Below, one piece after another: positions 1,727 to 32,873 of a DNA stretch of 36,217 bases. The DNA is taken from positions 1 through 36,217 of IMG/VR virus record IMGVR_UViG_3300050030_000049; one strand, 5' to 3'. Below the pieces are notes generated by a model, which saw only the letters and a list, made by a program, of their open reading frames with translations, did not search any database and was not told the DNA's origin. Position numbers and translations under genes: made by a program. Position 1 is the stretch's first letter, and every line of letters begins with the position of its first letter. The stretch comes from a virus.

Positions 1727-1740
1727 GTGTTATATTAGTA
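1727..1740 (+). promoter_or_regulatory. Late-promoter-like motif before the portal gene
   Basis: A perfect copy of GTGTTATATTAGTA ends exactly 10 bases before the portal ATG. It lies in the gap after the holin gene, a natural site for a promoter of the portal-connector unit. Confidence 0.75.
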
Positions 1741-1750
1741 AAACAACAAC

Positions 1751-3049
1751 ATGACAGAAAAAACAAAAGAATCAACTGTAACCTTTAGAACTGTTGTTAT
1801 TAACAAAGAAAATTTCTTGAGAGTGATTAACCCCGACCAGCAGGTACAAGAGACCAGTGGTTATATGGCTTATCACGCAGGAATTTATGGTAATAAAACA
1901 GATAATGGTTTCTTTGATTTATGTATCGACCTTTACACCAACGGTGCAGGAGCACATCAAAACTTGGTGAATTTAAAGGCAAACTTAATACTTGGAAATA
2001 ATCTCCAAGCAGAAGACAACAATGATGAAAGCAAAGTTGACCCATTCATTGCAAAACGTAATAAAGCCGGAGAAAACCTCAAAGTAGTTTATGCTCGTTT
2101 GGCTAAAGACTTTGCGTTATTCAATGGCTGTGTGCTACAAGTAGTATTCAATCGTGAAGGAAAAATAGCAGAATGCTATCATGTGCCAATGCAGAATTTC
2201 AGACTTGGTAAACAGAATAAATACGGACGATTCGAATACGGTTATATTTCACAGCAATGGAGTATAATTCAGAATAGTCGTGTAAATAAAGGTGTTAAAG
2301 ACATGGTTAAGATTAGACTCTTTGACCCAACCGACTATCAAAAGCACCCAGTACAATTACTATACTTGAAAGACTACAGTTACACACCCTACGCAGTACC
2401 AAGTTATACGTCAGCAATAAATTGGATACTGGTTTCAAGAGAAATTTCAGACTTTCACTTGAATAACATCAAATCAAATTTCTTCTTAGGTGGTATGTTG
2501 ACTATTCCAAAGAACGGTATGTCACCAGAGCAAATTGAAGAAAATGCACAACAGATAGAACGCATTTACAAAGGTGGAACTGGTATGAAATTACTTTTAC
2601 AGTACACCGATGACATGACTAATGGTAAAGGAGAATTCGAGAAATTCAGTCCGGACGACCAGGATAAAATGTGGGACATCCTTGCACAACAGAGTTTTCA
2701 GCAAATAGTCACAGCACATCAATCATACCCCATGTTGGCGGGAGCAGACAATAAAGGCAGTGGAGCAGACCTTGGTGGTGATGCAAACAAACTCATAACA
2801 ACTTTGGCAAGTTTCAACTCATTGGTAACAGAAGGTTATAAGCAAATAATTGTTGATGGAATAAATCGTATTATGGAAATAAACGAATTACCACCAGTAA
2901 TTGTAATAACTGAAATGCCTAAGATTACTCAGCCAAAAGATAATGGAGTTTTGACAGTTAATGAAATCCGTGAAATGCTTTATGGTTTACCGGAAATCGA
3001 CTCAAGTGTAAATAATGTCGCACCGACTAACACTATTCCGGCAGTATAA
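1751..3049 (+). CDS. Phage portal protein
   Basis: 432 residues, within the usual portal range. The portal forms the dodecameric ring at the capsid vertex through which DNA is packaged and ejected. The order of features is portal-like: a wing/clip region, the segment around SREISDFHLNNIKSNFFLGG, a helical stem, and near the C-terminus VLTVNEIREMLYGLPEID, which resembles the 'ltvNEiRe..Gl' signature of portals in many Bacteroidetes and Gram-positive phages. It is followed with a one-base overlap (TAATG) by a connector-like gene. The portal is far from terL (12443) and from the capsid gene (26607), an unusual order. Confidence 0.85.
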   Translation: MTEKTKESTVTFRTVVINKENFLRVINPDQQVQETSGYMAYHAGIYGNKTDNGFFDLCIDLYTNGAGAHQNLVNLKANLILGNNLQAEDNNDESKVDPFIAKRNKAGENLKVVYARLAKDFALFNGCVLQVVFNREGKIAECYHVPMQNFRLGKQNKYGRFEYGYISQQWSIIQNSRVNKGVKDMVKIRLFDPTDYQKHPVQLLYLKDYSYTPYAVPSYTSAINWILVSREISDFHLNNIKSNFFLGGMLTIPKNGMSPEQIEENAQQIERIYKGGTGMKLLLQYTDDMTNGKGEFEKFSPDDQDKMWDILAQQSFQQIVTAHQSYPMLAGADNKGSGADLGGDANKLITTLASFNSLVTEGYKQIIVDGINRIMEINELPPVIVITEMPKITQPKDNGVLTVNEIREMLYGLPEIDSSVNNVAPTNTIPAV

Positions 3050-3600
3050 TGGAAAGTACAATCGTAAACACAGAACAAGCAAAAAAATTGACAAGTTTGA
3101 GTCAGAACATTGACCCGGAACTTATCGAGAATCACTTGCTTATAAGCCAGCAATTATATGTTGCACCAGTGCTTGGTACGGCTTTATATGATGACATAGT
3201 AAGTCGTTATGATAACCAAGCATTAACCGGAGATAGTGGATTTCTATATGAGGAATACATCATACCTGCCGTTTGTTTTGGAGCATGGTATAGTGCAGCA
3301 CCATTCTTAAATTACCGTACTCAAAGAGCCGGAATTCAGACTTTAGCCTCACCTGACAATGTTGCTGTTACCCCGGAAGAATTTAACATATATGTATCGA
3401 GAGTGCAGAACTTAAAAGATTTTTATTGTCAACGCCTTAACGATTATCTAATTAAAGACAAGTATCAAAAATTCCCACTTTTCCGCAGTGATGACACACC
3501 TGTTGAATCGAATCGTGGCAGCAGTTTATATTTAGGATTCGGTAGACGTACTCCAAAAAAATCACCATGTTGTGATGATGACTGGATGTATGGCAGATAA
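3049..3600 (+). CDS. Head-tail connector/adaptor-like protein
   Basis: 183 residues. The N-terminal half (LSQNIDPELIENHLLISQQL, then YVAPVLGTALYDDI) resembles the DUF6712-type head-tail adaptor proteins that follow portal genes in Bacteroidetes phages. These dock under the portal and connect it to the neck. The helical middle segment IIPAVCFGAWYSAAPFLNYR fits. The C-terminus carries a short Cys-Asp-rich tail (SPCCDDDWMYG). It overlaps the portal stop by one base, so it is probably translationally coupled. Family assignment is from recall and position. Confidence 0.65.
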   Translation: MESTIVNTEQAKKLTSLSQNIDPELIENHLLISQQLYVAPVLGTALYDDIVSRYDNQALTGDSGFLYEEYIIPAVCFGAWYSAAPFLNYRTQRAGIQTLASPDNVAVTPEEFNIYVSRVQNLKDFYCQRLNDYLIKDKYQKFPLFRSDDTPVESNRGSSLYLGFGRRTPKKSPCCDDDWMYGR

Positions 3601-3605
3601 AAACG

Positions 3606-3682: not shown

Positions 3683-4369
3683 TTATTCCTTTGGAACTTC
3701 CAAGGCTTTACGTCTGAGTAAATAAAATCTTTTTTCACTTGGGAATTGTACGTCAGTAACTTTACCATTTTCATTAACTTGTATGCCGGAAATCCAATAA
3801 TTAACTTGTATGCCGGAAATCCAATAAATAACTTCCCAGTTTGGGAACTCTTGAATTTTTGACAATACTTCACGTGGATGCATGTGTGGTGCTAAAGGCA
3901 AGCCATCAGTAGTAAACTGACTATTAGTATCTGTACTATAAATGATAATGTATTTACCACAGAACTTGTTGAACAGCAAATCACACATGTCCAAGAAATC
4001 CTTATCAGAGGTTTGATGAAACCACACGTCAAGACATAACATCAAGTGTGACGATAATTCTAAATTCTTTAAGTCAGAAGTAAATTCATACTTGAGACTA
4101 TTTGGTATTTTACGGGTCTTTTCCTTGCAAATTTCAATTGCTTTTGGACTAATGTCATAACCACTATAAGCAATGGGTATTTTATACATCAGTAGATTTG
4201 CACCATCCCCACAACCAAATTCCGAAATTGTACGAATGCCAAATTGTTGTACCCAATGATTTATTATTGTTGCTTTCATAAGTGCTTCTTGACCATAACT
4301 GCCTGCTCCGGACGACCCCCCATTTACATACCTTGAATTCCAGTATTCTGCTAAATTAAATGTTTCCAT
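3683..4369 (-). CDS. Class I SAM-dependent methyltransferase
   Basis: 228 residues. Residues about 48-57 (ISEFGCGDGANLL) form the glycine-rich motif I that binds S-adenosylmethionine. SGYDISPKAIEICKEK is the usual motif II region with the acidic ribose-binding residue, and LMLCLDVWFHQT is a post-motif region. There is no DNA-methyltransferase catalytic motif (DPPY/NPPF or PC), so a small molecule, sugar or protein substrate is more likely. It is the last gene of a minus-strand operon with two glycosyltransferase-like genes, so glycan methylation is one reasonable guess. It contains a 27-bp in-frame tandem duplication (YWISGIQVN twice). Start at 4369 overlaps the HNH gene end by 14 bases. Confidence 0.8.
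   Translation of the reverse strand: METFNLAEYWNSRYVNGGSSGAGSYGQEALMKATIINHWVQQFGIRTISEFGCGDGANLLMYKIPIAYSGYDISPKAIEICKEKTRKIPNSLKYEFTSDLKNLELSSHLMLCLDVWFHQTSDKDFLDMCDLLFNKFCGKYIIIYSTDTNSQFTTDGLPLAPHMHPREVLSKIQEFPNWEVIYWISGIQVNYWISGIQVNENGKVTDVQFPSEKRFYLLRRKALEVPKE
3773..3827. repeat. Perfect 27-bp tandem duplication inside the methyltransferase gene
   Basis: Two adjacent identical 27-base units (3773-3799 and 3800-3826) encode YWISGIQVN twice in a row near the C-terminus. The absence of any mismatch suggests a recent slippage event. Confidence 0.95.
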
Positions 4370-4883
4370 AAGTTTCTTTTTTATAATTTCTATTATTTAT
4401 TACGCCATCAATTGTTTCTCTGCATACGCCAAATTTTATTGCAAATTCTTTACGTGATGTTTTACCTATTGATGAACGTATTTCTTTTACTTGTTGAGTT
4501 GATAGTTTATGAAGATGATTAGCATTCATTAAACCAGTACGAAATGCATGTTGTTTATTCTCTTTTGAAGTACACCATTCAAGATTATCAACACAACAAT
4601 TTGTTTTAATACCATCTTTATGATTAACCTCTGGTAAATTAAGTGGATTAGGTATAAATGCTTTTGCTACCATTACATGAATTCTAAATCGTCTTGCAAC
4701 TTTATCTTTTGATAATTTGGTTGAAAGATAACCATTAGTATCTACATTATTAGTAAGAATTCTTTCTGGTTGTAAATAAGTAACTTTAGCATTATTTCTA
4801 AATTTAGCAAGTGATTTTACTTCACCACATTCGTTAATTTGATAACGACCCTCATACTCTTCAATGTCTTTCCAGATTTCCAT
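4356..4883 (-). CDS. NUMOD4-HNH free-standing homing endonuclease (copy 1)
   Basis: 175 residues. The N-terminus EIWKDIEEYEGRYQINECG is a NUMOD4 DNA-binding motif. RIHVMVAKAFIPNP, then PEVNHKDG and NLEWCTSKEN, form the HNH_3-type nuclease core. The C-terminal part (LSTQQVKEIRSS... CRETIDGVINNRNY) looks like a helix-turn-helix specificity domain. Such enzymes nick DNA and promote copying of their own gene. The start overlaps the upstream gene's stop as TAATG, and the end overlaps the methyltransferase start, so this copy is fully woven into the operon. Two relatives lie at 18645 and 24387. Confidence 0.92.
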   Translation of the reverse strand: MEIWKDIEEYEGRYQINECGEVKSLAKFRNNAKVTYLQPERILTNNVDTNGYLSTKLSKDKVARRFRIHVMVAKAFIPNPLNLPEVNHKDGIKTNCCVDNLEWCTSKENKQHAFRTGLMNANHLHKLSTQQVKEIRSSIGKTSRKEFAIKFGVCRETIDGVINNRNYKKETYGNI

Positions 4884-7488: not shown

Positions 7489-8115
7489 ATGTTAAAACCA
7501 AATTATTTTCAGATTAGTATCTCACACTATAATAGTGTAGAGGCACTTTCGGTACGACAGAAGTACCAATGGGCAGGTTATGGATTATACTTAGCCATCA
7601 TGCAAATACTTGCCAATGCACCGGATAGAATTCTTCCGTTAAGCAAACTGAGTCAGTTAGCATACGAGTTACGTATCAGTGAGGAAGTGCTTACTGACAT
7701 AGTAAGGAGTTATTTTGAAATTGTTGATGATTATTTCTACTCACAAGAGTTGGAAAATGGTGTCAGTGCCTATATTAAGAAAGTATCTACACTTAATCCA
7801 AGTAATGGTGGTAAGGCAAGTGCAGCAAGTATGACTGCGGAAGAACGTATTGAACGTAGTAAGAAAGCACTTGCTGCTAAAGCAAGCAAACGACTTGCTA
7901 AGAGTATTGTACCGGATAGTAACGGATTGGATAGTAGTGTAGAGAAAAGTATCGTAGTGGACAGTATAGTAAAGGATAGTATAGTACCGAGTCAGCAAGC
8001 AGACTCTAACAGTATCAGTAAGCAAGTGCTCACTGTGCCAGCAAGCAACTTGCAAAAACAACTAACTGATTCAGCAAGCAAAGATTTTAATTCTGATGTT
8101 ATTGAATTTGATTAA
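7489..8115 (+). CDS. DUF4373-like phage replication-associated protein
   Basis: 208 residues. Residues 1-95 (FQISISHYNSVEALSVRQKYQWAGYGLY... IMQILANAPD... LPLSKLSQLAYELRISEEVL) resemble the DUF4373/Lin1244-like N-terminal domain, a winged-helix fold found in phage replication and initiator proteins. The C-terminal half is low complexity: an alanine/lysine-rich helix, then pentapeptide repeats of the type SIVxD (about residues 139-168), then a Ser/Gln-rich tail. The repeats coincide with six 15-bp DNA units that could serve as iterons. First gene after a host-type promoter, so early. Replication initiation is inferred. Confidence 0.7.
   Translation: MLKPNYFQISISHYNSVEALSVRQKYQWAGYGLYLAIMQILANAPDRILPLSKLSQLAYELRISEEVLTDIVRSYFEIVDDYFYSQELENGVSAYIKKVSTLNPSNGGKASAASMTAEERIERSKKALAAKASKRLAKSIVPDSNGLDSSVEKSIVVDSIVKDSIVPSQQADSNSISKQVLTVPASNLQKQLTDSASKDFNSDVIEFD
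7903..7992 (+). repeat. Six degenerate 15-bp tandem units (possible iterons) in the DUF4373-like gene
   Basis: Units start at 7903, 7918, 7933, 7948, 7963 and 7978. Each begins AGTA, and most end in GGAT or a close variant. They encode the SIVxD pentapeptide repeats. Iterons inside an initiator gene are known from lambdoid phages, so an origin is possible. Confidence 0.6.
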
Positions 8116-8125
8116 TCCAATTCCA

Positions 8126-8560
8126 ATGGTTATAATTGAAATTATCAATCTCAATGAAAAAGAAGTTTATGATTATGGTATGACACCAAGTCAGTGTAAC
8201 TTCTTAGAATTGCTTTGTAAGAAGAATGGTTATGCAAGTGCATTCAATAGGTATGTACTTATGGATGGTTATGAAAAGTCTTGTTATCATCTTACCAAGT
8301 CAATGGCAAGGATGTGGATAGATGCATTGGTTGAGAAGAAAGAATTTAAACTCGTTACACCTAATACTCCAAATAAGATTAAAGTACCAATCTTAACTCC
8401 AATTGATAATCCGTACTTCCAATGGACAGGTGAAGTTTTTATAGGTGTTGATTTAGCAGAAATGGAATCCAAGATGATTGACCCGGATGTCGTAGAAGTA
8501 TCGGACATTATGAAACAAGTAATAGCAATGAGAAAATCTAATATAACATTCAATGAATAA
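8126..8560 (+). CDS. Hypothetical early protein (144 residues)
   Basis: Start taken at ATG 8126 (MVIIEIINLNEKEVYDYG), which leaves a 10-base gap after the previous stop; the track start at 8096 would force an overlap. The protein is alpha/beta, with a helical middle (LTKSMARMWIDALVEKKEF) that looks like a winged-helix element followed by beta-rich residues. No family is recognised. The position between the replication-type gene and a small basic gene suggests an early role. Confidence 0.65.
   Translation: MVIIEIINLNEKEVYDYGMTPSQCNFLELLCKKNGYASAFNRYVLMDGYEKSCYHLTKSMARMWIDALVEKKEFKLVTPNTPNKIKVPILTPIDNPYFQWTGEVFIGVDLAEMESKMIDPDVVEVSDIMKQVIAMRKSNITFNE
8538..8548 (-). promoter_or_regulatory. Minus-strand copy of the late motif core
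   Basis: On the minus strand this reads TGTTATATTAG, lacking only the first G of the 12-base core. It is within the 3' end of the upstream gene and would point antisense into early genes. It may be chance or a weak antisense promoter. Confidence 0.3.
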
Positions 8561-8825
8561 ACAATTAAAGAAAGCCGTTAAGAAATACGGTAAGATGTGT
8601 GATGTATTCACAAACCCAAAGCATGAAGAACGTAAAGCCGAGAGATTGAAATGGAAAGACAAGGATTTAGATGCTGACCCAAAACCAATTGGTGTTAAAG
8701 CACTCCAAGCAGAGGTAAAAAAGTATGCTGATTTGTCAAGTCCATTCAAGTTGAAAAATGACCGTGCAACTCCAAGTTATTATGCTAATGATAAACCAAT
8801 ACCAAGATTTGAAAAAAATAATTGA
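8553..8825 (+). CDS. Small basic hypothetical protein (90 residues)
   Basis: Lys-rich throughout (MNKQLKKAVKKYGKMCDV, KHEERKAERLKWKDKD), with a Pro- and Tyr-containing C-terminus. No membrane segment or recognised family. It overlaps the previous gene by 8 bases (ATGAATAA), a coupling arrangement seen repeatedly in this genome. The charge suggests nucleic acid binding, but nothing diagnostic is present. Confidence 0.6.
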   Translation: MNKQLKKAVKKYGKMCDVFTNPKHEERKAERLKWKDKDLDADPKPIGVKALQAEVKKYADLSSPFKLKNDRATPSYYANDKPIPRFEKNN

Positions 8826-8865
8826 TGTTTTATGTAACATTATCCAATCTCAAACGTATAATGTG

Positions 8866-9058
8866 TATAATCTCCGGTAAAATTGAGTTGAGTAATCCTC
8901 AAGTGGTGTGACAAGCATCATCCAACTGGGAGTAGTTTTGAAAGGTAGGACATGGCAAGTATACATTGCAGAGTTGTCTGAGAGATAGAAAGTGCAACTC
9001 CAACCACACCGGAGATTTCCTTTAAAGCCAATGCCACCATACATTGGCTTTATTTTTT
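8866..9058 (+). ncRNA. Candidate structured RNA in the intergenic region, ended by a terminator
   Basis: No plus-strand gene occupies 8826-9091. AATCTCCGGT (8869-8878) is perfectly complementary to ACCGGAGATT (9008-9017), closing about 150 nt. Inside it GGTGTG (8905-8910) pairs with CACACC (9005-9010), either stacking on a 7-bp form of the first helix or competing with its last 3 pairs. Local hairpins are possible at 8888-8902 (TTGAG/CTCAA), 8953-8970 (bulged) and 8971-9000 (GAGTTG/CAACTC). A Rho-independent terminator follows directly. No known riboswitch class is recognised, and no clear promoter precedes it, so it may be the 3' part of the upstream mRNA or an independent RNA. Confidence 0.55.
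9023..9058 (+). terminator. Rho-independent terminator
   Basis: Perfect 11-bp stem TAAAGCCAATG/CATTGGCTTTA (9023-9033 and 9042-9052), an 8-base loop, then six T. It separates the replication unit and structured RNA from the next promoter, which starts two bases later. Confidence 0.9.
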
Positions 9059-9059
9059 C

Positions 9060-9090
9060 TTGACATTCTCATTCCAATTGACTATCTTTG
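9060..9090 (+). promoter_or_regulatory. Bacteroidetes-type promoter for the second early unit
   Basis: TTG at 9060-9062, 20 bases, then TATCTTTG at 9083-9090, a perfect -7 element. Start codons lie at 9092 and 9095, so the transcript would begin at or next to the ATG and be leaderless. Confidence 0.8.
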
Positions 9091-9091
9091 C

Positions 9092-9445
9092 ATGATGAAA
9101 CCACAATCAGCCAAAGCCAAAGGTCGTTTACTCCAACAACGAATCCGTGACATGATTCTTCAAGAATTTCCGGAGTTACAAGAAGATGATGTTACATCAA
9201 GGTCAATGGGAGCAGCAGGTGTAGATGTACTACTAAGTCCAAAAGCACAAAAAGTATTTCCATTTTCAATTGAAGCAAAAAACCAACAAGCATTGAATGT
9301 CTGGTCAGCCATGAAACAGGCAGAAAGCAATGCAAAAAATAATATACCTCTCTTGGTATTTCATCGTAATCATTCAAGTATTTATGCATGTCTACCAATT
9401 GAGGACTTGTTTAAAATACTCAAGAATGAAACTAAAACTACGTAG
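9092..9445 (+). CDS. Putative PD-(D/E)XK endonuclease (Holliday junction resolvase-like)
   Basis: 117 residues. The core is GAAGVDVLLSPKA... FPFSIEAKNQ: an Asp in VDV, then Glu-x-Lys in the next strand (EAK), the catalytic D-ExK pattern of this nuclease superfamily. LLVFHRNHSSIYACLPIEDL supplies the following strands. Phage proteins of this type are annotated as PDDEXK endonucleases or resolvases and act on recombination or packaging intermediates. The start is 9092 or 9095 because the promoter -7 element ends at 9090; the upstream ATG at 9044 lies in the terminator. It overlaps the next gene by 20 bases. Confidence 0.8.
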   Translation: MMKPQSAKAKGRLLQQRIRDMILQEFPELQEDDVTSRSMGAAGVDVLLSPKAQKVFPFSIEAKNQQALNVWSAMKQAESNAKNNIPLLVFHRNHSSIYACLPIEDLFKILKNETKTT

Positions 9446-9824
9446 GGTTTATCGTGGTCCAACTTATACAATCGGACACCTTTACATCAATGACAAATAC
9501 TTCTGTGACACCTTAGAGGATACTTGCAGAATTGTATCTGGTGATTGCTCACAGAAGATTTATGCCCGTACAGCCATTCCGGAAGGCTTGTACAAGGTAG
9601 AAATACTTTGGTGGGATAAACACCAAGACTATTATCCACACATCATCAACGTGCCTTGCTTTGAAGGAATTCTTATTCATGGTGGGATTGATGAAAATGA
9701 CACAGAAGGCTGTGTACTTCTTGGAGAAAATAAAACCAAAGGACACCTAACCAATTGCTTGACGTATGTACGACAATTGGTTATTTTGTTAAAAGGACAG
9801 CAAGCAACAATCGAAATACTATGA
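9426..9824 (+). CDS. DUF5675 family protein, possible wall-active enzyme
   Basis: 132 residues from ATG 9426. It matches the recalled pattern of DUF5675: an N-terminal strand pair, CDTLEDTCR, then TAIPEGLYKVEI, PHIINVPCFEGILIHGG and NDTEGCVLLG. The His (about 85) followed some ten residues later by T-x-G-C (Cys about 96) resembles the HG...SxGC active site of L,D-transpeptidase (YkuD) folds. That suggests action on peptidoglycan, which would make this the missing lysin partner of the holin candidate. The longer ORF start at 9330 is rejected because it overlaps the nuclease gene. Family call fair; enzymatic role is inference. Confidence 0.7.
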   Translation: MKLKLRRVYRGPTYTIGHLYINDKYFCDTLEDTCRIVSGDCSQKIYARTAIPEGLYKVEILWWDKHQDYYPHIINVPCFEGILIHGGIDENDTEGCVLLGENKTKGHLTNCLTYVRQLVILLKGQQATIEIL

Positions 9825-10135
9825 TACTAATGTTACTTCAATTAATAGGTGCAGCAGTATTGGCATGTTTCATAGCATACCAAAGTACTGTTGTGCAAAA
9901 AATAAAAACACTATGCGGTCTTGGAGAATTACAACATCCAAGACAGTGGAAATGGTGGGTAATGCCAATCGTATTGCTTTGGGATGAATTACGGGAATTA
10001 CTTAATTGTCCGTATTGTTTGAGTTTTTGGCTCGGTTTTGTAGTTGCATTGCAATACTATACTTTGGGACAGGCAGTATTTATAGCACCATTGGCAATAG
10101 TATTTGTGGAACTCTATAGAAAATTAACTTTATAA
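9821..10135 (+). CDS. DUF1360-like membrane protein
   Basis: 104 residues starting at the ATGA overlap with the previous gene. N-terminal hydrophobic segment (MLLQLIGAAVLACFIAYQ), a Trp-rich middle (WKWWVMPIVLLWDEL), then LNCPYCLSFWLGFVVAL and a final hydrophobic segment. The CPYC...FWLG signature is characteristic of DUF1360-type integral membrane proteins. Role unknown; location after the wall-enzyme candidate allows a link to lysis or superinfection exclusion, but the sequence does not show it. Confidence 0.65.
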   Translation: MILMLLQLIGAAVLACFIAYQSTVVQKIKTLCGLGELQHPRQWKWWVMPIVLLWDELRELLNCPYCLSFWLGFVVALQYYTLGQAVFIAPLAIVFVELYRKLTL

Positions 10136-10945
10136 ATGACTGGTGATACTAAAGTACTTGAATTTAATCAATTTTTTGTCGGCAATTATAAACACCTACT
10201 TGGCTTTGTCAATCTATTCCGAAAGGAAGAATACGCAGAGGACATTCTTCATGATGTCTTTATCAAGTGCTACAAAGCCATTAGTTTTAGTGGATACTCA
10301 GGCAATAGTTATCTAAGTTACACCAAGAGAGCAATAGGTAACACAAGGACCAATCATTTTCGTAATGCCAAGAATAGCGTTGATTTACTATCTCCGGTTG
10401 ATTATCTTCCGGCAGAATTTAATGACACCTATGAAAGTGAAGCAGAGTTAAAACTTCTGCAACAACAGCAAGATGAATTGTTGGAAGTAGATAGGCAGAA
10501 TGATGTAAACTTCAAACATACTATGGCATTCGAGTACGTGGATAAGTACTTCTCAGAGAAAGACCGGATGGTATTCAAGACTTATTATGTGTTGAAGCAC
10601 AAACATCTTAATTATAAACAACTGTCGATTGCAACATCAATGAGCCAATCAACAGTCTCAAACATAATCAAAAACATTAAGAAAGAATTGAGAATCAATC
10701 TTGAGTGTTATATTAGTACTAACATGAATCTTATGGAATTAACGGAGAAAGTACAGAAAGTCGAAGCATTACTGCAAAAAGACCTACGACATAACTTAGG
10801 TGAATATAAAGCATGGTATTTACAAGTCTTTGGTAAATCGTGGTCAGGATGCGGGTGCAACTTGAATCAAATCCGTGAAAGTCTCAAGGCATGGCATGCG
10901 AAAAATCGGGCAATCTTAGCAGAACAATCAAAAATTATACAATAA
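10136..10945 (+). CDS. Phage-encoded sigma-70 family (ECF-like) sigma factor
   Basis: 269 residues. Region 2 spans about residues 8-78: EEYAEDILHDVFIKCYKAIS is the conserved core-binding helix, and SYTKRAIGNTRTNHFRNAK the -10-recognition helix. Region 4 spans about 138-188, with helix-turn-helix YKQLSIATSMSQSTVSNIIK for the -35. The domain order is that of ECF sigma factors. It differs from them in a C-terminal extension of about 75 residues starting at an internal Met (197). A perfect late-motif copy lies in the coding sequence just after region 4. It sits in an early unit and is the obvious candidate to drive the GTGTTATATTAG promoters of the virion genes. Confidence 0.88.
   Translation: MTGDTKVLEFNQFFVGNYKHLLGFVNLFRKEEYAEDILHDVFIKCYKAISFSGYSGNSYLSYTKRAIGNTRTNHFRNAKNSVDLLSPVDYLPAEFNDTYESEAELKLLQQQQDELLEVDRQNDVNFKHTMAFEYVDKYFSEKDRMVFKTYYVLKHKHLNYKQLSIATSMSQSTVSNIIKNIKKELRINLECYISTNMNLMELTEKVQKVEALLQKDLRHNLGEYKAWYLQVFGKSWSGCGCNLNQIRESLKAWHAKNRAILAEQSKIIQ
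10705..10718 (+). promoter_or_regulatory. Late-promoter-like motif inside the sigma factor gene
   Basis: Perfect GTGTTATATTAGTA, five bases before an in-frame ATG (10724) that would give a separate 73-residue protein covering the sigma C-terminal extension. It encodes Glu-Cys-Tyr-Ile-Ser-Thr of the full-length protein. It could drive the downstream genes (small ORFs, terminase) late in infection. Confidence 0.65.
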
Positions 10946-10950
10946 ATCCA

Positions 10951-11430
10951 ATGACAAGACAAGAATTACATCAGATTAAAGAAATCTACGACATGCTTGA
11001 GAAAGGTTTGACACATCCTCTCAAAGCAACAGCAGCCTTTGCAATTATACAACCCGGTGCATCAGCAGATACACCAATGAGAGTTAAGCATAATGCAATC
11101 CAACGTTTCATGATGCTCAGTTATCGTGACGAGTATGATGCAATGACAAGACAAGAGAAAGTCGATGCAATACTACCACCACTGGAAGATAGTATTGGTA
11201 CAATTGAAAACCTTAAACAACAAAGTCACAAGGAAAGTGCTAATGATGACTTGGCTACTCGTGACCATGATGACATCAAGAATTTCTTAACCAAGTCGGA
11301 GAAAGATAATCTTGCAAGTGATGACAGTGGTACAACTTTAATAATTGACAAAGATGGTCAAAAGAAAAGGACAAGAAGTCCCAACGGTACACATAAAGCA
11401 CGGACGAAAGTCGTTATCGAAAAAAGATAA
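10951..11430 (+). CDS. Hypothetical protein with helical core and basic tail
   Basis: 159 residues from ATG 10951 (MTRQELHQIKEIYDMLEKG), five bases after the sigma stop. The first 75 residues are helical; the middle is acidic and Ser/Asp-rich; the C-terminus is strongly basic (KKRTRSPNGTHKARTK). The alternative ORF start at 10891 would overlap the sigma gene by 55 bases and is not used. No family recognised. Position just before the terminase genes allows a packaging or scaffolding role, without direct evidence. Confidence 0.65.
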   Translation: MTRQELHQIKEIYDMLEKGLTHPLKATAAFAIIQPGASADTPMRVKHNAIQRFMMLSYRDEYDAMTRQEKVDAILPPLEDSIGTIENLKQQSHKESANDDLATRDHDDIKNFLTKSEKDNLASDDSGTTLIIDKDGQKKRTRSPNGTHKARTKVVIEKR

Positions 11431-15336: not shown

Positions 15337-15350
15337 GTGTTATATTAGAA
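15337..15350 (+). promoter_or_regulatory. Late-promoter-like motif before the tail completion operon
   Basis: GTGTTATATTAGAA (12-base core perfect) lies nine bases before the ATG at 15360, in the 75-base gap after the chaperone-like gene. Confidence 0.75.
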
Positions 15351-19163: not shown

Positions 19164-19181
19164 GTCAATAAAATTAAAAAA

Positions 19182-24390: not shown

Positions 24391-24881
24391 GTCCATTGTT
24401 GATTATGTATGATACGTCCAATTTGTCTTTGTGAAACACCATATTCTTTGGCTAATCGAACTTGACCATAAATGCGTGGTATATGTTTTAAACGAATTTC
24501 TTTGACTTGAGTTTCAGTTAATACTGCACGACCATTGGCTTCACCAATTGAGTCACGAAGTCCTGTTTTAATTGCATGGTCAGTATTATTTTTTGAGGAA
24601 CTCCATTCTAAATTCCAATCATTGTTATTTTTCTTGTTACCGTCTAAATGGTTTACTTCGGGAAGATTCAAAGGATTTGGAATAAATGCAATAGCAACTA
24701 AACGATGAATTTTCGGTGTTTTTTGAGTAGTGCATTTACGTAAATGTACTGACAAATACCCAAGCATGTTACATGGAGTAAGTATTTTATATGGTGATTT
24801 AACACGACCTTTTGTAGATACTTGATAGTATTCATTACAGTTTTCAATTATCTCCCAAACTTCTTTATTAAATTTTTTCAT
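24387..24881 (-). CDS. NUMOD4-HNH free-standing homing endonuclease (copy 3)
   Basis: 164 residues. NUMOD4-like N-terminus (EVWEIIENCNEYYQVSTKG), HNH core KIHRLVAIAFIPNP, PEVNHLDGNKKN and NLEWSSSKNNT, and a C-terminal helix-turn-helix (LAKEYGVSQRQIGRIIHNQ). The stretch AFIPNPLNLPEVNH is identical in copy 1, so the two are close relatives. Antisense in the gap between the tape measure and prohead protease genes, with its stop overlapping the tape measure stop. Its promoter (24908-24938) is interleaved with the late motif of the protease gene. Confidence 0.92.
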   Translation of the reverse strand: MKKFNKEVWEIIENCNEYYQVSTKGRVKSPYKILTPCNMLGYLSVHLRKCTTQKTPKIHRLVAIAFIPNPLNLPEVNHLDGNKKNNNDWNLEWSSSKNNTDHAIKTGLRDSIGEANGRAVLTETQVKEIRLKHIPRIYGQVRLAKEYGVSQRQIGRIIHNQQWT

Positions 24882-24888: not shown

Positions 24889-24902
24889 GTGTTATATTAG
24901 TA
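24889..24902 (+). promoter_or_regulatory. Late-promoter-like motif before the prohead protease gene
   Basis: Perfect GTGTTATATTAGTA. It ends 38 bases before the ATG at 24941, a longer leader than most copies. The opposed HNH promoter lies within that leader. Confidence 0.75.
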
Positions 24903-24940: not shown

Positions 24941-26542
24941 ATGAAATTAAAATTGCCAGTCTATGAGTTTCTTATTGATGAAACTGTCGAATCAGGAGTT
25001 AAATGTATTTCAATTGTAGGTGACCCGGCTTTTGGTAGTAAAGCAGTATTCTTCGAAAAACACAAACCAAAATATATTGCTTTAGGTGATGTTAAGAAAC
25101 AAATTATTGCTGGACTTTCATTAATACCGAATGTTTTAGTTTATCGTATTGACCCAGAAACCCAAGAAGAATATAATGGGTATTTTTCAGCAGAAACAAT
25201 TGAACAAATAGTGAATAAATTTCATGATGAACAACAAGGTAAAAATGTTAATCTTGAACATAATTCAAACCTGCCAGTTAATGCTTATTTATTGGAAGAT
25301 TATATTGTTAATTCACCAGAAAGAGTGGCAGATTTAAAAGCAAAAGGTATTGAACATCCTAACATCATGGGTGCATGGTATGTTTCTTACAAGATAAAAG
25401 ACCCAAAAGTATTTGAAACGATAATTAATAGTGAAATTGATTCTATTGGATTTTCCGTGGAAAGTTATCTCGATAAAGTACTTACGGATTTTAACCAAGA
25501 GGTAATTAATCAAATAATTAATAAACAAATTAAAGTAGAAATGACAAAAGTAAATAAAAGTTTAAAAGAAAAAATACTTGCGATTTTCACAGAAGTAGAA
25601 AATTTTCAACGTGCACTTGTACCGGAATTGGCATTCGACATCGAATGGGGTAAGGTAGGCGAACCAGTTAGTAAAATAATTACTAACGAGAATGGCATCG
25701 AAACTTCCACACCAGTTGGTACGGGCGAATTTTCAACTGAGAAAGGGATTATCGTAGTAGATGCATCTTCCAACTTAGCAGAAGTACGTCCTTTACCTGC
25801 ACAACCTGCAGAGAAAGCACCAGAAGTACCAGCAAGTGGTAGCACATCAGGAACAACAAGTGGAACTACAGCAGTTAGTGGTGCAACAGCAATTGTTGAT
25901 GCACAACCTTCAGCACCTGCTCCTTCAGGCGTTACAGACAATACAATGCCAATGATACCAAGTGGCACTACAAGTGGTGACACAAACATGGCTGCCTATC
26001 CTTGGAGTCAATGTATAAGTGACCAATTGGCAAAAGGCATTAGTCAAAGTGGTGCAGAGAAAATCTGTGGTTGGATTAAAGCAAACAATTCTTCTGAATT
26101 AAGTGATGCACAACTTGCAGAACTTGATGAAGCAGACAGATTGGCTTGTAAAAAGAAAAAAATGGATGACGAAATTCCTTTGGCAAGTGGTAGTACAAGT
26201 GGTACAACAGCAACAACTGATGGACTTAATAAGACCATTAAAGAATTGTGTCCGGTTGCCGGAGATTATATTATCCAAGTTTGTGTTGATGACACTGGCA
26301 CTATAACAGAAGCAAGTGTGACATCACAAAAAGACTTACTTCCTCAAGCACAAGATAGTGGTATGGATGGTGGTTTTTCAGCAAGAGTAAAGAAAGCATT
26401 CGCAAGACTTACTGAACTTGAAGCAAAAATGAAAGAACCAATTTCAGACCCAATTTTAGCACCGGAGAAGAAAGCCTTGACACAAGACGAATTTAACAAA
26501 CTTACTCCTTTTGAGAAAATCAAATACAATAGGGGTTGGTAA
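24941..26542 (+). CDS. XkdF-like prohead protease with scaffold-like C-terminus
   Basis: 533 residues. N-terminal domain (1-190): SLIPNVLVYRIDPETQEEYN and GYFSAETIEQIVNKFHDEQ, then NLEHNSNLPVNAYLLEDYI (His about 107) and IDSIGFSVESYLDK (Ser about 168 or 172), the layout of XkdF-type serine prohead proteases. A Thr/Ser/Gly linker with SGTTSGTT repeats (about 295-345) is followed by PWSQCISDQLAKGISQSGAE and a helical end, as in fused protease-scaffold proteins. It would guide capsid assembly and cleave the scaffold. It lies directly before the capsid gene, the usual order. Confidence 0.82.
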   Translation: MKLKLPVYEFLIDETVESGVKCISIVGDPAFGSKAVFFEKHKPKYIALGDVKKQIIAGLSLIPNVLVYRIDPETQEEYNGYFSAETIEQIVNKFHDEQQGKNVNLEHNSNLPVNAYLLEDYIVNSPERVADLKAKGIEHPNIMGAWYVSYKIKDPKVFETIINSEIDSIGFSVESYLDKVLTDFNQEVINQIINKQIKVEMTKVNKSLKEKILAIFTEVENFQRALVPELAFDIEWGKVGEPVSKIITNENGIETSTPVGTGEFSTEKGIIVVDASSNLAEVRPLPAQPAEKAPEVPASGSTSGTTSGTTAVSGATAIVDAQPSAPAPSGVTDNTMPMIPSGTTSGDTNMAAYPWSQCISDQLAKGISQSGAEKICGWIKANNSSELSDAQLAELDEADRLACKKKKMDDEIPLASGSTSGTTATTDGLNKTIKELCPVAGDYIIQVCVDDTGTITEASVTSQKDLLPQAQDSGMDGGFSARVKKAFARLTELEAKMKEPISDPILAPEKKALTQDEFNKLTPFEKIKYNRGW

Positions 26543-26558: not shown

Positions 26559-26572
26559 GTGTTATATTAGTA
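26559..26572 (+). promoter_or_regulatory. Late-promoter-like motif before the major capsid gene
   Basis: Perfect GTGTTATATTAGTA, 34 bases before the capsid ATG at 26607. A dedicated promoter fits the high demand for capsid protein. Confidence 0.78.
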
Positions 26573-26606: not shown

Positions 26607-27512
26607 ATGAAAGCAAAAAAATTAGACTTCGCAACAACTTTGAACGAAACTCAGAGTTATATTGGTGAACCTGCTTTACCATACATCACCGAAGCATTTA
26701 CTAAAAACCGTACAGTTGATTCTGGCGTTAGAATAGTAGAAGACATTATCAAATACGCATACGTTGCAAAACTTACTGGCAGTGGCTTAGTACAAGTTGG
26801 ACAAAATTGTGACTTCAATGCAGACGGAACATTAAAAGCAACCGAAGTGAAACTTGCTCCTTGTACCTTACACATCGACATCGAACTTTGCTACAAAGAC
26901 CTCGAAGCACTTTGGAATGGTATTTCAAGTGGAAACTTGAATACTCAAGACCCAGGTGCAGACTTCCAAGCAGCACTTCAGAAAGTTTTGATTGATGCAA
27001 TGCATAAGGATTTCGAAAACAAACTTTGGAACTACACTGGTAGCACTGGTTGTACAATCACAGGTTTGACAAAACAAATCACCAACAAAGTAACGGGAAC
27101 TACTGGCTTAACAGCAGGTAACATCGTTGCTGCAGTTGATGCATTGGTTGCAAAACTTCCTTCAAACGTACTTGAAGATGTAACTGGACTTAAACTTTAC
27201 ATGAATCCTAAATCAGCATTAATGTACAAACAAGCATTAATGAAACTCGGACTTAACACTCCGGCTGACATGCCGCCACAGACCTATGCAGGTTTGGAAA
27301 TCTACACAATCGCACAGATTGCAGATAACGTAATGGTAGTAATACAACCACAGAACATCGTAGTTGGTGTTGGTGCTGCAGATAACTTCACACAACTTGT
27401 TATTAAAGACATGAGAGAAAGCACTCTTGATAACAAAGTACGTATGAAAATCCAAGGTAGTGTCGACGTAAAAGTCATCTATCCGGCAGAGGCAGCAATT
27501 TGGGCACTTTAA
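26607..27512 (+). CDS. Major capsid protein (HK97 fold)
   Basis: 301 residues. An N-arm and helix (ETQSYIGEPALPYITEAF) leads to the P domain and the recurring ending seen in Bacteroidetes phage capsids: PPQTYAGLEIYTIAQIADNV, then VIKDMRESTLDNKVRMKIQG and DVKVIYPAEAAIWAL. Its position straight after the protease/scaffold, its own late motif and its own strong terminator all fit the most abundant virion protein. The N-arm may or may not be cleaved; no site is obvious. Confidence 0.87.
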   Translation: MKAKKLDFATTLNETQSYIGEPALPYITEAFTKNRTVDSGVRIVEDIIKYAYVAKLTGSGLVQVGQNCDFNADGTLKATEVKLAPCTLHIDIELCYKDLEALWNGISSGNLNTQDPGADFQAALQKVLIDAMHKDFENKLWNYTGSTGCTITGLTKQITNKVTGTTGLTAGNIVAAVDALVAKLPSNVLEDVTGLKLYMNPKSALMYKQALMKLGLNTPADMPPQTYAGLEIYTIAQIADNVMVVIQPQNIVVGVGAADNFTQLVIKDMRESTLDNKVRMKIQGSVDVKVIYPAEAAIWAL

Positions 27513-27523
27513 AAAATACTGAA

Positions 27524-28144: not shown

Positions 28145-28187
28145 AAACCGCAAGGTGATTTAACTATCATCTTGCGGTTTTGCTTTG
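28145..28187 (+). terminator. Terminator after the tail tube gene
   Basis: 14-bp stem, AAACCGCAAGGTGA with TCATCTTGCGGTTT (one G-T pair), an 8-base loop, then a T-rich run broken by GC. It separates the capsid/tube unit from the fibre unit that starts at the motif at 28200. Confidence 0.85.
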
Positions 28188-28199: not shown

Positions 28200-28213
28200 G
28201 TGTTATATTAGAA
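28200..28213 (+). promoter_or_regulatory. Late-promoter-like motif before the large fibre gene
   Basis: GTGTTATATTAGAA (12-base core perfect) ends 11 bases before the ATG at 28225, directly after the tail tube terminator. Confidence 0.78.
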
Positions 28214-28224: not shown

Positions 28225-31200
28225 ATGGCATTCACAGCATCAATTGGTAACCAAGGTAGTAATTGTACAAACGTATATGCACAAGGAACAATTTATCATA
28301 ATACCGGAATTGTTGATACTTATGGAATTGAAATAAATGGTGTTAAAACACAAAAAGGTACAACTCCACCAGTTGGCTATACTTATTTTAATCACAATTT
28401 TACTGGAAGTTATGGTACTACATATACCATGCGTACTTATGGACATGTTTATGGTGGTAGTTATTTTTATAGTGGCTATGTTTCAGTAACTCCAGTTAAT
28501 ACTCCACCAAGTCTTACTACAACAACTCCAACCGGAATAGCTGCATTTAACGCAGTTGGTATTGGTAATGTAACTTCTGCAGGTTGTCATGCTGTAACAT
28601 CAAGAGGATTATGTTGGAGTACAAGTGCAAATCCAACAACTGCAGACCCACATGTAAATGTCAGTGGTACGACCGGAAGTTTTACTGGTGCAATAACCGG
28701 ACTTTTACCAACAACATTATACCATGTACGTGCTTTCGCAATGGGAAGCAGTATGTCTTATGGTAATGATGTGACTTTTACAACTAAAACTCCACCAACA
28801 GTTACAATAACAACAATAACGGATGCAACCGATGTACTGATGTTGATTACTGCCAATGTAACATTATCTGGAAGTGGTGCAGTTAGTGCAAGAGGTATAT
28901 GTTGGGGAAGTATAGCAAATCCAACAATCAGTGGAAATCATACAACTAATGGTAGTGGACTTGGTGCATTTACCGGAACAATAACTGGACTTACTTATCC
29001 TCAAATTTATTTTGTACGTGCTTATGCAACAAATAGTTATAGTACTGCATATAGTCAACAAAAGACTGTAATGGCATTAGCAGGTGAAGTAATTTATAGT
29101 GGTTATACATCAAGCGGAACATTGGTTATACCAACGGGAAAAAACTTTACAAATTATCTTATTGTCGGTGGTGGTGCAGGTGGTGGAAATGCTAAAGGTA
29201 GTCCACCTTTTGCTGGTGCTTATGCAGGTGGTGGTGGTGGTGGTGGATTGCTTTCGGGCATAAAACATCTTTCTACTACTGGTGGAACATTCGCAGTTGT
29301 TGTTGGTAATGGTGGAGCACCTAATGCAGGTGGTGGAGTAGGAGCAGGTGGTGGACAATCAAGCGTATTTGGATTAATTGCTTATGGTGGTGGAGCAGGT
29401 GCATGTAGTGGTGACATTTATGGATTTCCTTGGGAAGATGGATTTAATGGTGCAAACGGTGGTGGTGGTGGTAGTTATACTACTATTGGTGAAACTTTTG
29501 GTGGAAATGCAGTACATGGACCACAAGGACATGATGGTGGTGATGGCTCATTAAGTTATCCATTCGAACATGGTGGTGGTGGTGGTGGTTATTTAACTGC
29601 AGGTAGTTTTGATGCAGGAAGTGGAATAACATTAAATTATAGTGGACAATTAATACTATATTCAAGGGGTGGAACTGGTATTAGTCATACAGCCAACGGT
29701 GCAAGTGGATTAACAAATAGTGGACAAGGTGGTGGTGGTGCAGGACAATACGTAACAATTTCAATACCCGGACAATTATATTATGGTGGTGCAGGTGGAA
29801 AAGGTGTAATTTATACTCTTGCTGGATTCAATCCGTGGTTGATGGATACTCCAACATTTACAATAATTAATATATTAAGTGGTTGTACATTATATGCAAA
29901 AGCAACAATAGATTTACCAAACTTTCATAATGTTGGTTATTATCGTCTTGAAAGAAGTACTACCAGTGGTGGAACATATACAGTAGTTGCAACTGGCTCA
30001 ACGGGTGGAACTCAGATTATTTATGACCAAACTCCAGTTTATGGCAGTACTTATTGGTATAAAGTTGTTGCCGTTAATCAATATATGACAGAAGATAGTG
30101 CTGTAACAAATCTTCAATCAACAGTTAGTTTGCCAAACGCACCAGTTTTAAATGCAGTATTGAATGTAAGTGCAGTTGATTTGTCTTGGACTGATGCTAA
30201 TTTATTTCATAATAAACATCAAGTTTATCGTAGAGATTTACCTTCTGTAACATATAATCTTAAAGCAACAGTAACCGGAAATACTTATACTGATTCTACA
30301 ATCACTTATGGTCATGAATACCGATACAAAATTCGTGAAGAAATTGATTGTTTTGCACCAACATACATTTACAGTCCTTATAGCAATGAAGCAAACATTT
30401 ATATTAATGCTTTACTTATTGCACCTACGGGAATTTCAACAGTAATTACTTGTACCGGAGTAACAATAAATTGGGTAAATAATAACGTCAGTGGTCAGAC
30501 TGGTAATTATATTAAAGAATGGAATGGTACTGGTTATACAATAATTGCTACACTTTCAAGTGGTAGTAGTACTTATCACATAACTGGATTAACACCAATT
30601 TCTTCTTACATTTATATTGTTGCAGCATATAATAGCAGTCAAATGGCAAACTCTGCCGACATAAATGTTACAACACAAGACCCAACACCATTCAATATAA
30701 ATGTCGGTGTTAGTTATTTAACTGCACCTGTAACTTGGAGCATTAACGACCCACCTTATGGTACAGCAATTCGTCCGGAAATTCGTGTAAGTGGAGATAC
30801 TTCATGGACAACTAAACCATTGCTTGTAAAAAATGCCGTTTCATATACCTATACCGGACTTAGTTTTAACACTAATTATGAAGGTAGATTGGTACGTATT
30901 GGTACTGAGTATCCATCAATAATCTTTGGATTTCCTACGACAACATTTTTAGCACCAGATAATCTCATAATTACTTCTGTCGGAGATAAACAAATTTGTT
31001 TACAATGGCAAAATCATAGTGTAAATGACAATATAGGTGTATGGTATAGAAAAGAAGCAGAAGTATGGCAACTTTATCAAACTATTACTAATACCAATAC
31101 TACTATTTGTGTGACCGGACTTTCAATGCAGACACTTTATACGTTTGCAGTATTAAATAATTACGGAATTTATAGTCTTAGCAGTAATCAAGTACAAGCA

Positions 31201-32280
31201 ACAACTACTGTTGCTTTCTTACCACCTTTCTGTGAAGCAGGTGGACAATTTAGTATAACCGGAGCAACTTGTGGAAACTCTGATGGTATTATTGCTATGG
31301 CAGAAGATTATACAATTTTTTATAATTTCACGTTAGAAGATGCTTTTGGAACTTTTTATACATTAACAGATTACTATTGGACTGGCTTAACTGCAGGTTG
31401 GTATAAGATAACTGCAACAGTCAAACCACAATGGTATACTCATTATGGTAATGATGATTGTATAATAGATTGGATTGCTTTACCAGATACAAATACTACA
31501 CTTTCATTGTTTGATACTAAAATCAAAAATGCTGTTTGTGGTGGATTTGGTAGTGGTAAAGGTAGAATTGTTTATCAGTTTTATGATAGTGATACCGGAA
31601 ATACTATTTGGGATTTTATATTATTCAATAATGCACATCAAATAGTAAATACGCAAAGTGGATTATCTGGAATTACTGCTATACAATATAGTGCACAACC
31701 GGATGATTATTATGGCATGATTCAGAATCAAGATGGTTGTAGACTACTTTTTGGATTAACACAAGTTGGTGCTGAGAAACTTTGGACCGTAGAGGGCATT
31801 CAGAGGCTATTTCTGACACCCTGGTCAGCAAGCACATCTTATGATTACTATGATAATACAAGTGATGATTGGTATGTCGCAGGCATCGACACACAACAAT
31901 TCACATCAACCAAGATAGCAAGGTATAATAATCTTTCGGACTTTTGGTATGAAATACGTTTACAGACAGCCGTAATGACTTATGGACAATCTCTGCAGAA
32001 AGGTAGTAATGGCTTGACTTACCAAGAAACCATCAATATAAGCATACCACATGCAGACAATGCTAAATGGAAACAATTAGTAAATGTACTAAGTCAAAGG
32101 TATATTATAGTTTTTCAAGATAACAATGGAAATTGGTGGACAAGTTTTTATCGTAATGGTGCAGAAGTAAAGGCTTATCAACTCAGTGAAAACCAATACA
32201 ACATCACTTTTCAACATCCAAGTGTAAATAAAATGTTAACGGCAATTGACTATGCTTATGTGAAATTAAATATACTATAA
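28225..32280 (+). CDS. Large multidomain fibre/baseplate adhesin with FN3-like and Gly-rich regions
   Basis: 1351 residues. Order: N-terminal beta domain; two repeats of a Bacteroidetes type (VTSRGLCWSTSANPT at about 125-140 and VSARGICWGSIANPT at about 220-235); a Gly-rich domain (about 315-530) of GGG-containing turns as in phage fibre tips; fibronectin III-like modules (about 560-1000, e.g. NITGLTPISSYIYIVAAYNS-type strands); an Ig-like module (about 1010-1090); and a C-terminal domain (EGIQRLFLTPWSASTSYDYY, then LQKGSNGLTYQETINISIP) of the kind found at the ends of Bacteroidetes baseplate proteins. Probably a tail-tip adhesin. No enzymatic motif seen. Confidence 0.8.
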   Translation: MAFTASIGNQGSNCTNVYAQGTIYHNTGIVDTYGIEINGVKTQKGTTPPVGYTYFNHNFTGSYGTTYTMRTYGHVYGGSYFYSGYVSVTPVNTPPSLTTTTPTGIAAFNAVGIGNVTSAGCHAVTSRGLCWSTSANPTTADPHVNVSGTTGSFTGAITGLLPTTLYHVRAFAMGSSMSYGNDVTFTTKTPPTVTITTITDATDVLMLITANVTLSGSGAVSARGICWGSIANPTISGNHTTNGSGLGAFTGTITGLTYPQIYFVRAYATNSYSTAYSQQKTVMALAGEVIYSGYTSSGTLVIPTGKNFTNYLIVGGGAGGGNAKGSPPFAGAYAGGGGGGGLLSGIKHLSTTGGTFAVVVGNGGAPNAGGGVGAGGGQSSVFGLIAYGGGAGACSGDIYGFPWEDGFNGANGGGGGSYTTIGETFGGNAVHGPQGHDGGDGSLSYPFEHGGGGGGYLTAGSFDAGSGITLNYSGQLILYSRGGTGISHTANGASGLTNSGQGGGGAGQYVTISIPGQLYYGGAGGKGVIYTLAGFNPWLMDTPTFTIINILSGCTLYAKATIDLPNFHNVGYYRLERSTTSGGTYTVVATGSTGGTQIIYDQTPVYGSTYWYKVVAVNQYMTEDSAVTNLQSTVSLPNAPVLNAVLNVSAVDLSWTDANLFHNKHQVYRRDLPSVTYNLKATVTGNTYTDSTITYGHEYRYKIREEIDCFAPTYIYSPYSNEANIYINALLIAPTGISTVITCTGVTINWVNNNVSGQTGNYIKEWNGTGYTIIATLSSGSSTYHITGLTPISSYIYIVAAYNSSQMANSADINVTTQDPTPFNINVGVSYLTAPVTWSINDPPYGTAIRPEIRVSGDTSWTTKPLLVKNAVSYTYTGLSFNTNYEGRLVRIGTEYPSIIFGFPTTTFLAPDNLIITSVGDKQICLQWQNHSVNDNIGVWYRKEAEVWQLYQTITNTNTTICVTGLSMQTLYTFAVLNNYGIYSLSSNQVQATTTVAFLPPFCEAGGQFSITGATCGNSDGIIAMAEDYTIFYNFTLEDAFGTFYTLTDYYWTGLTAGWYKITATVKPQWYTHYGNDDCIIDWIALPDTNTTLSLFDTKIKNAVCGGFGSGKGRIVYQFYDSDTGNTIWDFILFNNAHQIVNTQSGLSGITAIQYSAQPDDYYGMIQNQDGCRLLFGLTQVGAEKLWTVEGIQRLFLTPWSASTSYDYYDNTSDDWYVAGIDTQQFTSTKIARYNNLSDFWYEIRLQTAVMTYGQSLQKGSNGLTYQETINISIPHADNAKWKQLVNVLSQRYIIVFQDNNGNWWTSFYRNGAEVKAYQLSENQYNITFQHPSVNKMLTAIDYAYVKLNIL
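29221..29590 (+). repeat. GGT-rich low-complexity tracts in the fibre gene
   Basis: Runs of five to seven GGT codons occur near 29226-29246, 29458-29475 and 29572-29589. They encode poly-Gly turns. Such runs are prone to slippage, always in steps of three, so the gene stays in frame. Confidence 0.8.
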
Positions 32281-32846
32281 TGGCAATACAGATTCTCGAC
32301 AACTGCACCTTTGATTGCAGTAAAATTCAGACCTTATGGGTTGGCAGTCGTTTGATTGACGGCAATCCTATTGTCCATCCGATTCAATACTTGACAATAA
32401 GTGGTAGTAGTGACTCAATAATTCGTGTTGAAGCATGGGACACAATTAACGACATTGTGACAATTGGTGGACAACAGATAGTTGTGAATAAAATCACAAA
32501 CTTAGGTGACAATTTGACTTTTGGTGAAGAACTACGTATTGACCAAAACGGCAAGGTATATGTCAAAAGCATTAGTTTTATTATACCAAGTCTTACTTTA
32601 TTCTTGATTAATCAACTCAAGGAATTCACTGTAACATCGAATGGTTTAGCACAACTTGCACCAACAATTGCATTCTTGGTTGATGAAAATGACCAGACAT
32701 TAGTTGTCGGACATGACAAACCACTTTATTTGGATAGCACTGATTTTAAGATTGGTGATACGAATGATGTGACACTTGGTTATTCTTCAAGAAGTTATTC
32801 AAGAGCACGTGCGTATCAAATTCAGCCAATAATAATACCACATTAA
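32280..32846 (+). CDS. Tail/baseplate-associated structural protein
   Basis: 188 residues, mostly beta-strand (YLTISGSSDSIIRVEAWDTI, TIGGQQIVVNKITNLGDNLT) with a Tyr/Arg-rich end. I recognise no family. It overlaps the fibre gene stop by one base (TAATG), so it is probably co-translated and part of the same tail-tip structure. It is followed by a late-motif copy. Confidence 0.6.
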   Translation: MAIQILDNCTFDCSKIQTLWVGSRLIDGNPIVHPIQYLTISGSSDSIIRVEAWDTINDIVTIGGQQIVVNKITNLGDNLTFGEELRIDQNGKVYVKSISFIIPSLTLFLINQLKEFTVTSNGLAQLAPTIAFLVDENDQTLVVGHDKPLYLDSTDFKIGDTNDVTLGYSSRSYSRARAYQIQPIIIPH

Positions 32847-32859
32847 AATCTGACCTTGC

Positions 32860-32873
32860 GTGTTATATTAGTA
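32860..32873 (+). promoter_or_regulatory. Late-promoter-like motif before the second fibre unit
   Basis: Perfect GTGTTATATTAGTA, 12 bases before the ATG at 32886. It decides the start of the next gene, because the earlier TTG start at 32856 would put the motif inside the coding sequence. Confidence 0.75.

Follow-up and report, generated by a model that had tools for sequence, protein, structure and literature searches.

What reads the 12-mer GTGTTATATTAG, which recurs through the late region of this phage genome, and is the sigma factor encoded by the same genome its reader? The stretch analyzed here, referred to as the window, comprises an entire IMG/VR record (36,217 bases) from a bacterial virus, in which end repeats are absent.

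Copies of the 12-mer and their gene context

The eight copies counted in the preliminary description were confirmed: all are exact and lie on the plus strand, starting at positions 1727, 10705, 13728, 15337, 24889, 26559, 28200 and 32860. Dinucleotide shuffles of the window (n = 100) contained 0.03 copies on average and one at most, and an order-3 Markov model predicts 0.002 copies on the plus strand. One-mismatch copies were not found on the plus strand of the window; the only one on the minus strand is intragenic. The copies open the late gene blocks on the plus strand, and no early block is opened by one. The features to which the text refers are the following.

1727–1738, plus strand: copy 1, before the portal gene (1751–3049), with AAC 20 nt before the G of GTTA, which is the −35 spacing of the clade described below
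7414–7383, minus strand: host-type promoter TTTG-N20-TATATTTG of the leftward early unit
10136–10720, plus strand: ECF-type sigma factor, with sigma2 at about residues 2–81 and sigma4 at about 119–195, the last gene of what looks like a rightward early unit
10705–10716, plus strand: copy 2, inside the sigma ORF towards its 3′ end, at the head of the packaging unit (small genes and the large terminase gene, 12443–13888)
10721–10945, plus strand: in-frame C-terminal extension of the sigma ORF, before which the sigmas of relatives end
13728–13739, plus strand: copy 3, within the large terminase gene, preceding a DUF6549 gene at 13891
15337–15348, plus strand: copy 4, before the gene at 15360 and the tail genes, with AAC at the clade −35 spacing
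24889–24900, plus strand: copy 5, before the XkdF-like protease gene (24941–26542)
26559–26570, plus strand: copy 6, before the capsid gene (26607–27512)
28145–28180, plus strand: terminator-like hairpin (stem of 15 pairs) that closes the capsid unit and lies 20 nt ahead of copy 7
28200–28211, plus strand: copy 7, before the fn3/glycine-rich fibre gene (28225–32280)
32860–32871, plus strand: copy 8, before a gene with its ATG at 32886, followed by fibre genes

Six copies had been placed before virion genes or operons; as a correction, the copies at 10705 and 13728 are intragenic, one in the sigma ORF and one in the gene for the large terminase. Behind copy 2 the next starts are the ATGs at 10724 and 10733, in frame within the sigma ORF; at the corresponding place in the relative P12024S a promoter stands just before a small Cys-rich gene at 21280. 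In the relatives G003 and G006 the element directly follows the terminase gene, which is comparable to the position of copy 3. The membrane gene behind copy 3 looks like an Rz-type spanin. Gene starts follow the 12-mer at distances of about 17 to 160 nt. Terminator-like sites are in general not commoner in the window than in shuffles. A minus-strand gene at 24387–24881, which starts 8 nt from copy 5, has the look of an HNH-like, homing-endonuclease-type gene, as have two further minus-strand genes at 18645–19184 and 4356–4883.

Plus-strand genes without a close upstream copy of GTGTTATATTAG are found at 7489–10135 (a replication-initiation-like gene, a RusA-like resolvase and small genes) and are followed by the sigma gene, an arrangement that looks like a rightward early unit. 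The earlier assignment of a TTTG/TAnnTTTG host promoter to the early genes applies to the leftward unit; the rightward one has a weak match at best. In P12024S (L139) the word TATTAACGGAAA occurs three times, where late promoters on the plus strand face TATATTTG-like host-type boxes on the minus strand (near 5411 on the minus strand, with 13 others by word), and host and phage promoters may overlap there back to back. A methyltransferase-like ORF of the window (3683–4369, minus strand) contains a tandem duplication (NYWISGIQVNYWISGIQVN) that may be recent.

The sigma factor of the window

The ORF at 10136–10945 matches the family phrog_1740 (RNA polymerase sigma factor) over residues 6–190 with an E value of 9e-8, and also Sigma70_r2 and Sigma70_r4, the latter two under the Pfam cut-offs. 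When a profile of 17 family members was compared with the PDB, ECF sigmas were matched over both domains (SigW at 2.4e-6, SigE, SigL and SigH). The predicted model of residues 1–195 has a mean pLDDT of 77 and a pTM of 0.40, so that the relative placing of its domains is uncertain. It aligns with region 2 of SigR (Z 10.6, rmsd 1.7 over 73 residues), with region 4 of sigmaE bound to −35 DNA (Z 9.0, rmsd 2.8 over 69) and with both domains of SigH (Z 10.9), and the best rows of the fold search are sigma factors. Both profile and model contain only the sigma2 and sigma4 domains, separated by nothing but a weakly predicted linker (about 38–45 residues between the aligned parts; pLDDT below 50 for residues 79–99). 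In ECF sigmas this linker is shorter than 50 residues. Known hallmarks of ECF sigmas are AAC at −35, CGT at −10 and the possession of sigma2 and sigma4 only, and positive autoregulation is listed as a hallmark with exceptions (PMC8103513). As to autoregulation in the window, no plus-strand copy of GTGTTATATTAG lies between 1739 and the start of the sigma gene at 10136.

Profile and predicted fold thus bear out the ECF-like nature of the protein, which had been noted from the sequence, but the boundaries given for it (10136–10945) include some 75 C-terminal residues that are missing from the sigmas of relatives. Residues 196–269 have no counterpart there, and copy 2 lies at the junction. The segment 10721–10945 possibly encodes a separate small protein that would start at 10724 or 10733 and be expressed from copy 2. 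Its homology to the small Cys-rich protein of the relatives was not borne out by a profile test, which was negative, and this reading was dropped. A co-transcribed anti-sigma factor is a further hallmark of ECF sigmas; the neighboring genes at 9821–10132 and 10948–11427 gave no informative family match.

Relatives and co-occurrence of the sigma gene

Direct kin of the window sigma were found neither by tblastn in the phage collection nor with peptide patterns in IMG/VR, because the sigmas are too diverged, and the capsid provided the way in. A capsid search led to the Nonlabens phages P12024S and P12024L, through which at least 582 IMG/VR stretches were reached, along with three Bacteroidota MAG contigs. 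By its capsid sequence, the window belongs to a large and mostly uncultured clade of Bacteroidota phages, of which the Nonlabens phages are the isolates. Terminase searches returned a near-copy of the window and distant kin only, and no sigma match was obtained in the terminase relatives tested. The 14-mer GTGTTATATTAGTA was also tried as a route to kin and was abandoned, as it occurs in at least 120 IMG/VR stretches, nearly all single-copy and unrelated. Among the matches listed, the set of copies was shared only by a near-copy contig of the window, which is 99.8–99.9% identical and therefore provides no independent evidence. In the unrelated phage contig L009 the 14-mer is found twice on the minus strand (155–168 and 417–430), inside sigma-70-like promoters of the form TTGACA-N17-TATATT with a conserved upstream block, probably by convergence on an extended −10.

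The co-occurrence of sigma and promoters was examined in 24 large clade records, comprising 21 IMG/VR contigs, P12024S, P12024L and the window. A homologous sigma was detected by family profile in 20 of these, the window included, usually just before the terminase genes; G001 is the 21st, matched by phrog_1740 only. The recurrent gene order is sigma, small Cys-rich protein, small terminase, large terminase and late genes. Two records, G019 and G015, yielded no sigma and no small Cys-rich gene, and these fragments probably do not extend to the sigma region. G015 is the sole large contig that has a promoter site but no sigma match; it is a fragment in which the gene normally following the sigma is undetected too. 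Clear examples of the motif in the absence of a sigma gene were not encountered among the large clade records. G017 (L278, L279; 8049–11331, minus strand) keeps the small Cys-rich gene with no detectable sigma before it and has no GTTA promoters. Its regulator may have been replaced or may have diverged strongly, and a short ORF at 8201–8449 of this contig looks HTH-like by eye. Three Bacteroidota phages of other kinds (phi17:1, P2559Y and P2559S) contained neither the sigma nor the small Cys-rich gene. In most relatives the Cys-rich protein, with DCGC and ESC motifs, is encoded between the terminase genes and the sigma gene, immediately behind the latter (L164:1211–1645, L165:4462–4836, L139:21280–21639, L260:896–1309) and is possibly a partner of the sigma or of packaging. 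The preliminary description had suggested a search for this co-occurrence, and its outcome is positive: a homologous sigma adjoins the terminase genes, and the late genes carry a related element, AAC-N17/18-GTTA.

A two-box element before late genes

Words enriched upstream of clade genes include terminator tails, words around ATATGCCTAATAA, and CGTTATA, GTTATAT and AGTTATA. When 112 non-redundant GTTA instances were aligned, AAC started 20–21 nt before the G in 38 of them, against 0–8 at most other positions, and in the same alignment an ATG followed exactly 11 nt after the G in 38 instances. The full pattern, AAC-N17/18-GTTA with ATG 10–11 nt after the G, is present at 59 of 1292 gene starts and in 38 of 101 clade loci. 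In shuffled upstream regions its mean was 1.0 and its maximum 3. In control contigs, a non-random sample drawn mostly by a shared 14-mer and with a GC content of 0.38 (0.35 in the clade), it was found at 1 of 1500 gene starts, and at none of 184 in four Bacteroidota phage records outside the clade that lack the sigma. Permuted words of the same letters gave 0–4 matches, except for ACA/GTTA with 17, which is probably the AACA box in the neighboring register. With each downstream N-terminus counted once the pattern remains at 36 of 935 starts, and near-copies alone therefore do not make the result. In the large records the capsid strand carries all 33 two-box sites. Under the strict pattern, about half of the large contigs are without a site, some of them with other −10 words or evident variants. 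Repeated exact 12-mers in P12024S gave nothing clear as a route to the motif, and the two-box element emerged only on aligned gene starts.

The sites of individual phages are similar in form but not in wording. P12024S has seven of the type AAAACA...CGTTAATA..ATG, none of which is in its replication genes. G013 has four (TGTAACAAAA...TAGTTTTAATTAT followed by ATG, and alike) and G029 three (AACAATAAA...TCGTTTTTAATAT followed by ATG, and alike). From these examples, AACA and the spacing therefore appear to be kept, while the −10 word (GTTA, GTTT, ATTA) varies phage by phage. Since the ATG is placed 11 nt after the G of GTTA, transcription in the relatives is predicted to start at the ATG itself, and their late mRNAs would be leaderless.

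The often exact distance of 11 nt from GTTA to ATG in the relatives could also suggest that the element works at the mRNA level, signalling translation from the start codon behind it. However, in the window the distance to the gene start is variable, the AAC box is paired with GTTA at a fixed DNA spacing, and only part of the gene starts, all of them on the late strand, carry the element; we regard a role in translation as extremely unlikely.

The host housekeeping sigma might alternatively read GTGTTATATTAG, either as a variant −7 box (TATATTAG instead of TAnnTTTG) or as an extended −10 (TGnTATATT), perhaps with the help of a phage activator. TATATTAG is only one base off TAnnTTTG, and in the unrelated contig L009 the same 14-mer is twice part of a sigma-70-like promoter. 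Yet the TTTG −33 box is absent at the window copies, and what the relatives keep is AAC-N17/18-GTTA and not TATATTAG, an element that is absent from phages without the sigma. Recognition by the housekeeping sigma is thus unlikely.

The element in the window

The window version deviates from the clade pattern. Aligned on the G of GTTA, the eight copies share GTGTTATATTAG, followed by T in six and then by A in all eight; upstream of the 12-mer no invariant base was found across them. The −10 word is GTGTTA, where the relatives have [C]GTTA. The base 11 nt after the G is an A in every copy, at a local A frequency of 0.51. The absence of a conserved −35 element, as described earlier, holds as a rule, although two of the eight copies (1727 and 15337) have AAC at exactly the clade −35 spacing, for which the chance expectation is about 0.014. 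With a start at the A 11 nt after the G, predicted leaders measure about 6–39 nt at seven copies; the exception is copy 3, whose predicted start lies about 150 nt ahead of the gene at 13891. The elements of L189 (GTTATATTAATATG) and L178 (GTTATAATAGTATG) are close in sequence to the window version. The 12-mer would then be the −10 element of the clade lengthened to 12 invariant bases, with the −35 mostly lost and leaders that are mostly short. The earlier guess of an extended −10 fits this.

The preliminary description had also mentioned an operator. In that case GTGTTATATTAG would bind another phage protein that controls the late genes, and the sigma would serve other promoters. In favor of this, an invariant stretch of twelve bases is long for a −10 box, and a conserved −35 is missing from the window. 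Against this, GTGTTATATTAG is non-palindromic and used in a single orientation throughout, and the element of the relatives is bipartite, its boxes spaced much as in ECF promoters and set at a constant distance from the ATG; we regard an operator as very unlikely.

Proposed late transcription and comparison with known systems

In view of the above, GTGTTATATTAG is most likely the −10 part of late promoters recognized by host core RNA polymerase carrying the ECF-type sigma of the phage (10136–10720). The host sigma would read the early genes first, and the phage sigma gene comes last in the rightward early unit. The newly made phage sigma would then direct the polymerase to the eight copies of GTGTTATATTAG, each of which would open a late unit (packaging, head, tail, fibre or the spanin-like gene), with transcription starting at the A that follows the G of GTTA by 11 nt. 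The early and late timing is deduced from the sequence. A switch from host to phage sigma for the late genes, as proposed earlier, is supported by clade-wide co-occurrence, ECF-like geometry and gene order, from which we also infer the link between sigma and sites. Several points speak against this explanation: sigma sequences are just 10–20% identical, the window deviates from its relatives, with AAC in two of eight copies and leaders where these are predicted to have none, about half of the large contigs are without a strict site, and G017 has the gene that usually comes after the sigma but no detectable sigma.

The use of phage sigmas to switch on late genes is a known strategy (phiEco32, 7-11, T4); new are the clade and the variant. 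In T4, late transcription employs the phage sigma gp55 and the sequence TATAAATA, in late promoters reduced to a −10 element, and gp55 has no sigma4 and needs the sliding clamp. The window shares with T4 a phage sigma and −10-only late promoters but differs in that its sigma has a sigma4 domain. Closer parallels are phiEco32 (TAATGTATA, experimental) and Salmonella phage 7-11 (TGTGATGTTATA, predicted), which have long −10-like motifs with no reported −35 (PMC4331800). These systems also combine a phage sigma, late genes behind several near-identical long −10-like motifs and host promoters for the early genes, and the window likewise has a phage sigma gene and a phage-specific motif confined to late units, here known from sequence. 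In contrast to the window clade with its Bacteroidota hosts, phiEco32 and 7-11 infect Enterobacteriaceae and encode an anti-sigma; the relatives of the window, for their part, combine a true AAC box at −35 with late mRNAs that are predicted to be leaderless.

The isolates P12024S and P12024L (Inhavirus; hosts Nonlabens/Persicivirga) resemble the window as capsid relatives with a sigma (gp33 and gp35, respectively) before the terminase genes, annotated merely as a hypothetical protein with Sigma-70 region 2. Each has seven late sites, AAAAC-N17/18-CGTTA and then ATG. They differ from the window by full two-box promoters without room for a leader, and their capsid is only about 23% identical to that of the window. 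With the bacterial ECF sigmas SigH, SigR, sigmaE and SigW the window sigma shares the sigma2 and sigma4 architecture and fold, and the AAC and GTT-type boxes are present in its relatives. Unlike them it is phage-encoded, adjoins the terminase genes and has no motif copy upstream of its gene. A description of a sigma-driven late-gene switch in Bacteroidota phages was not found in the open-licence papers searched. The promoters of Bacteroidota themselves differ from those of other bacteria.

Significance

For the clade as a whole, we consider it reasonably likely that a phage ECF sigma reads the late genes, that its promoter recognition has drifted apart between individual phages (GTTA, GTTT or ATTA, with AACA kept), and that the late mRNAs are leaderless and begin with the A of ATG, in contrast to the mostly leadered mRNAs of hosts such as Flavobacterium. 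In Flavobacterium johnsoniae, 87% of predicted transcripts have leaders longer than 10 nt (PMC6847099). The window phage would be a derived case, in which the −35 is mostly lost, the −10 is a fixed 12-base word and leaders are present. If this is true, the transcription programme of a whole clade, including early and late genes and the starts of units, could be read from sequence. The naturally diverged pairs of sigma and promoter would serve for the study of specificity change in ECF sigmas and as orthogonal expression tools in Bacteroidota, and the late genes would offer a clear test of leaderless translation in hosts without Shine-Dalgarno sequences.
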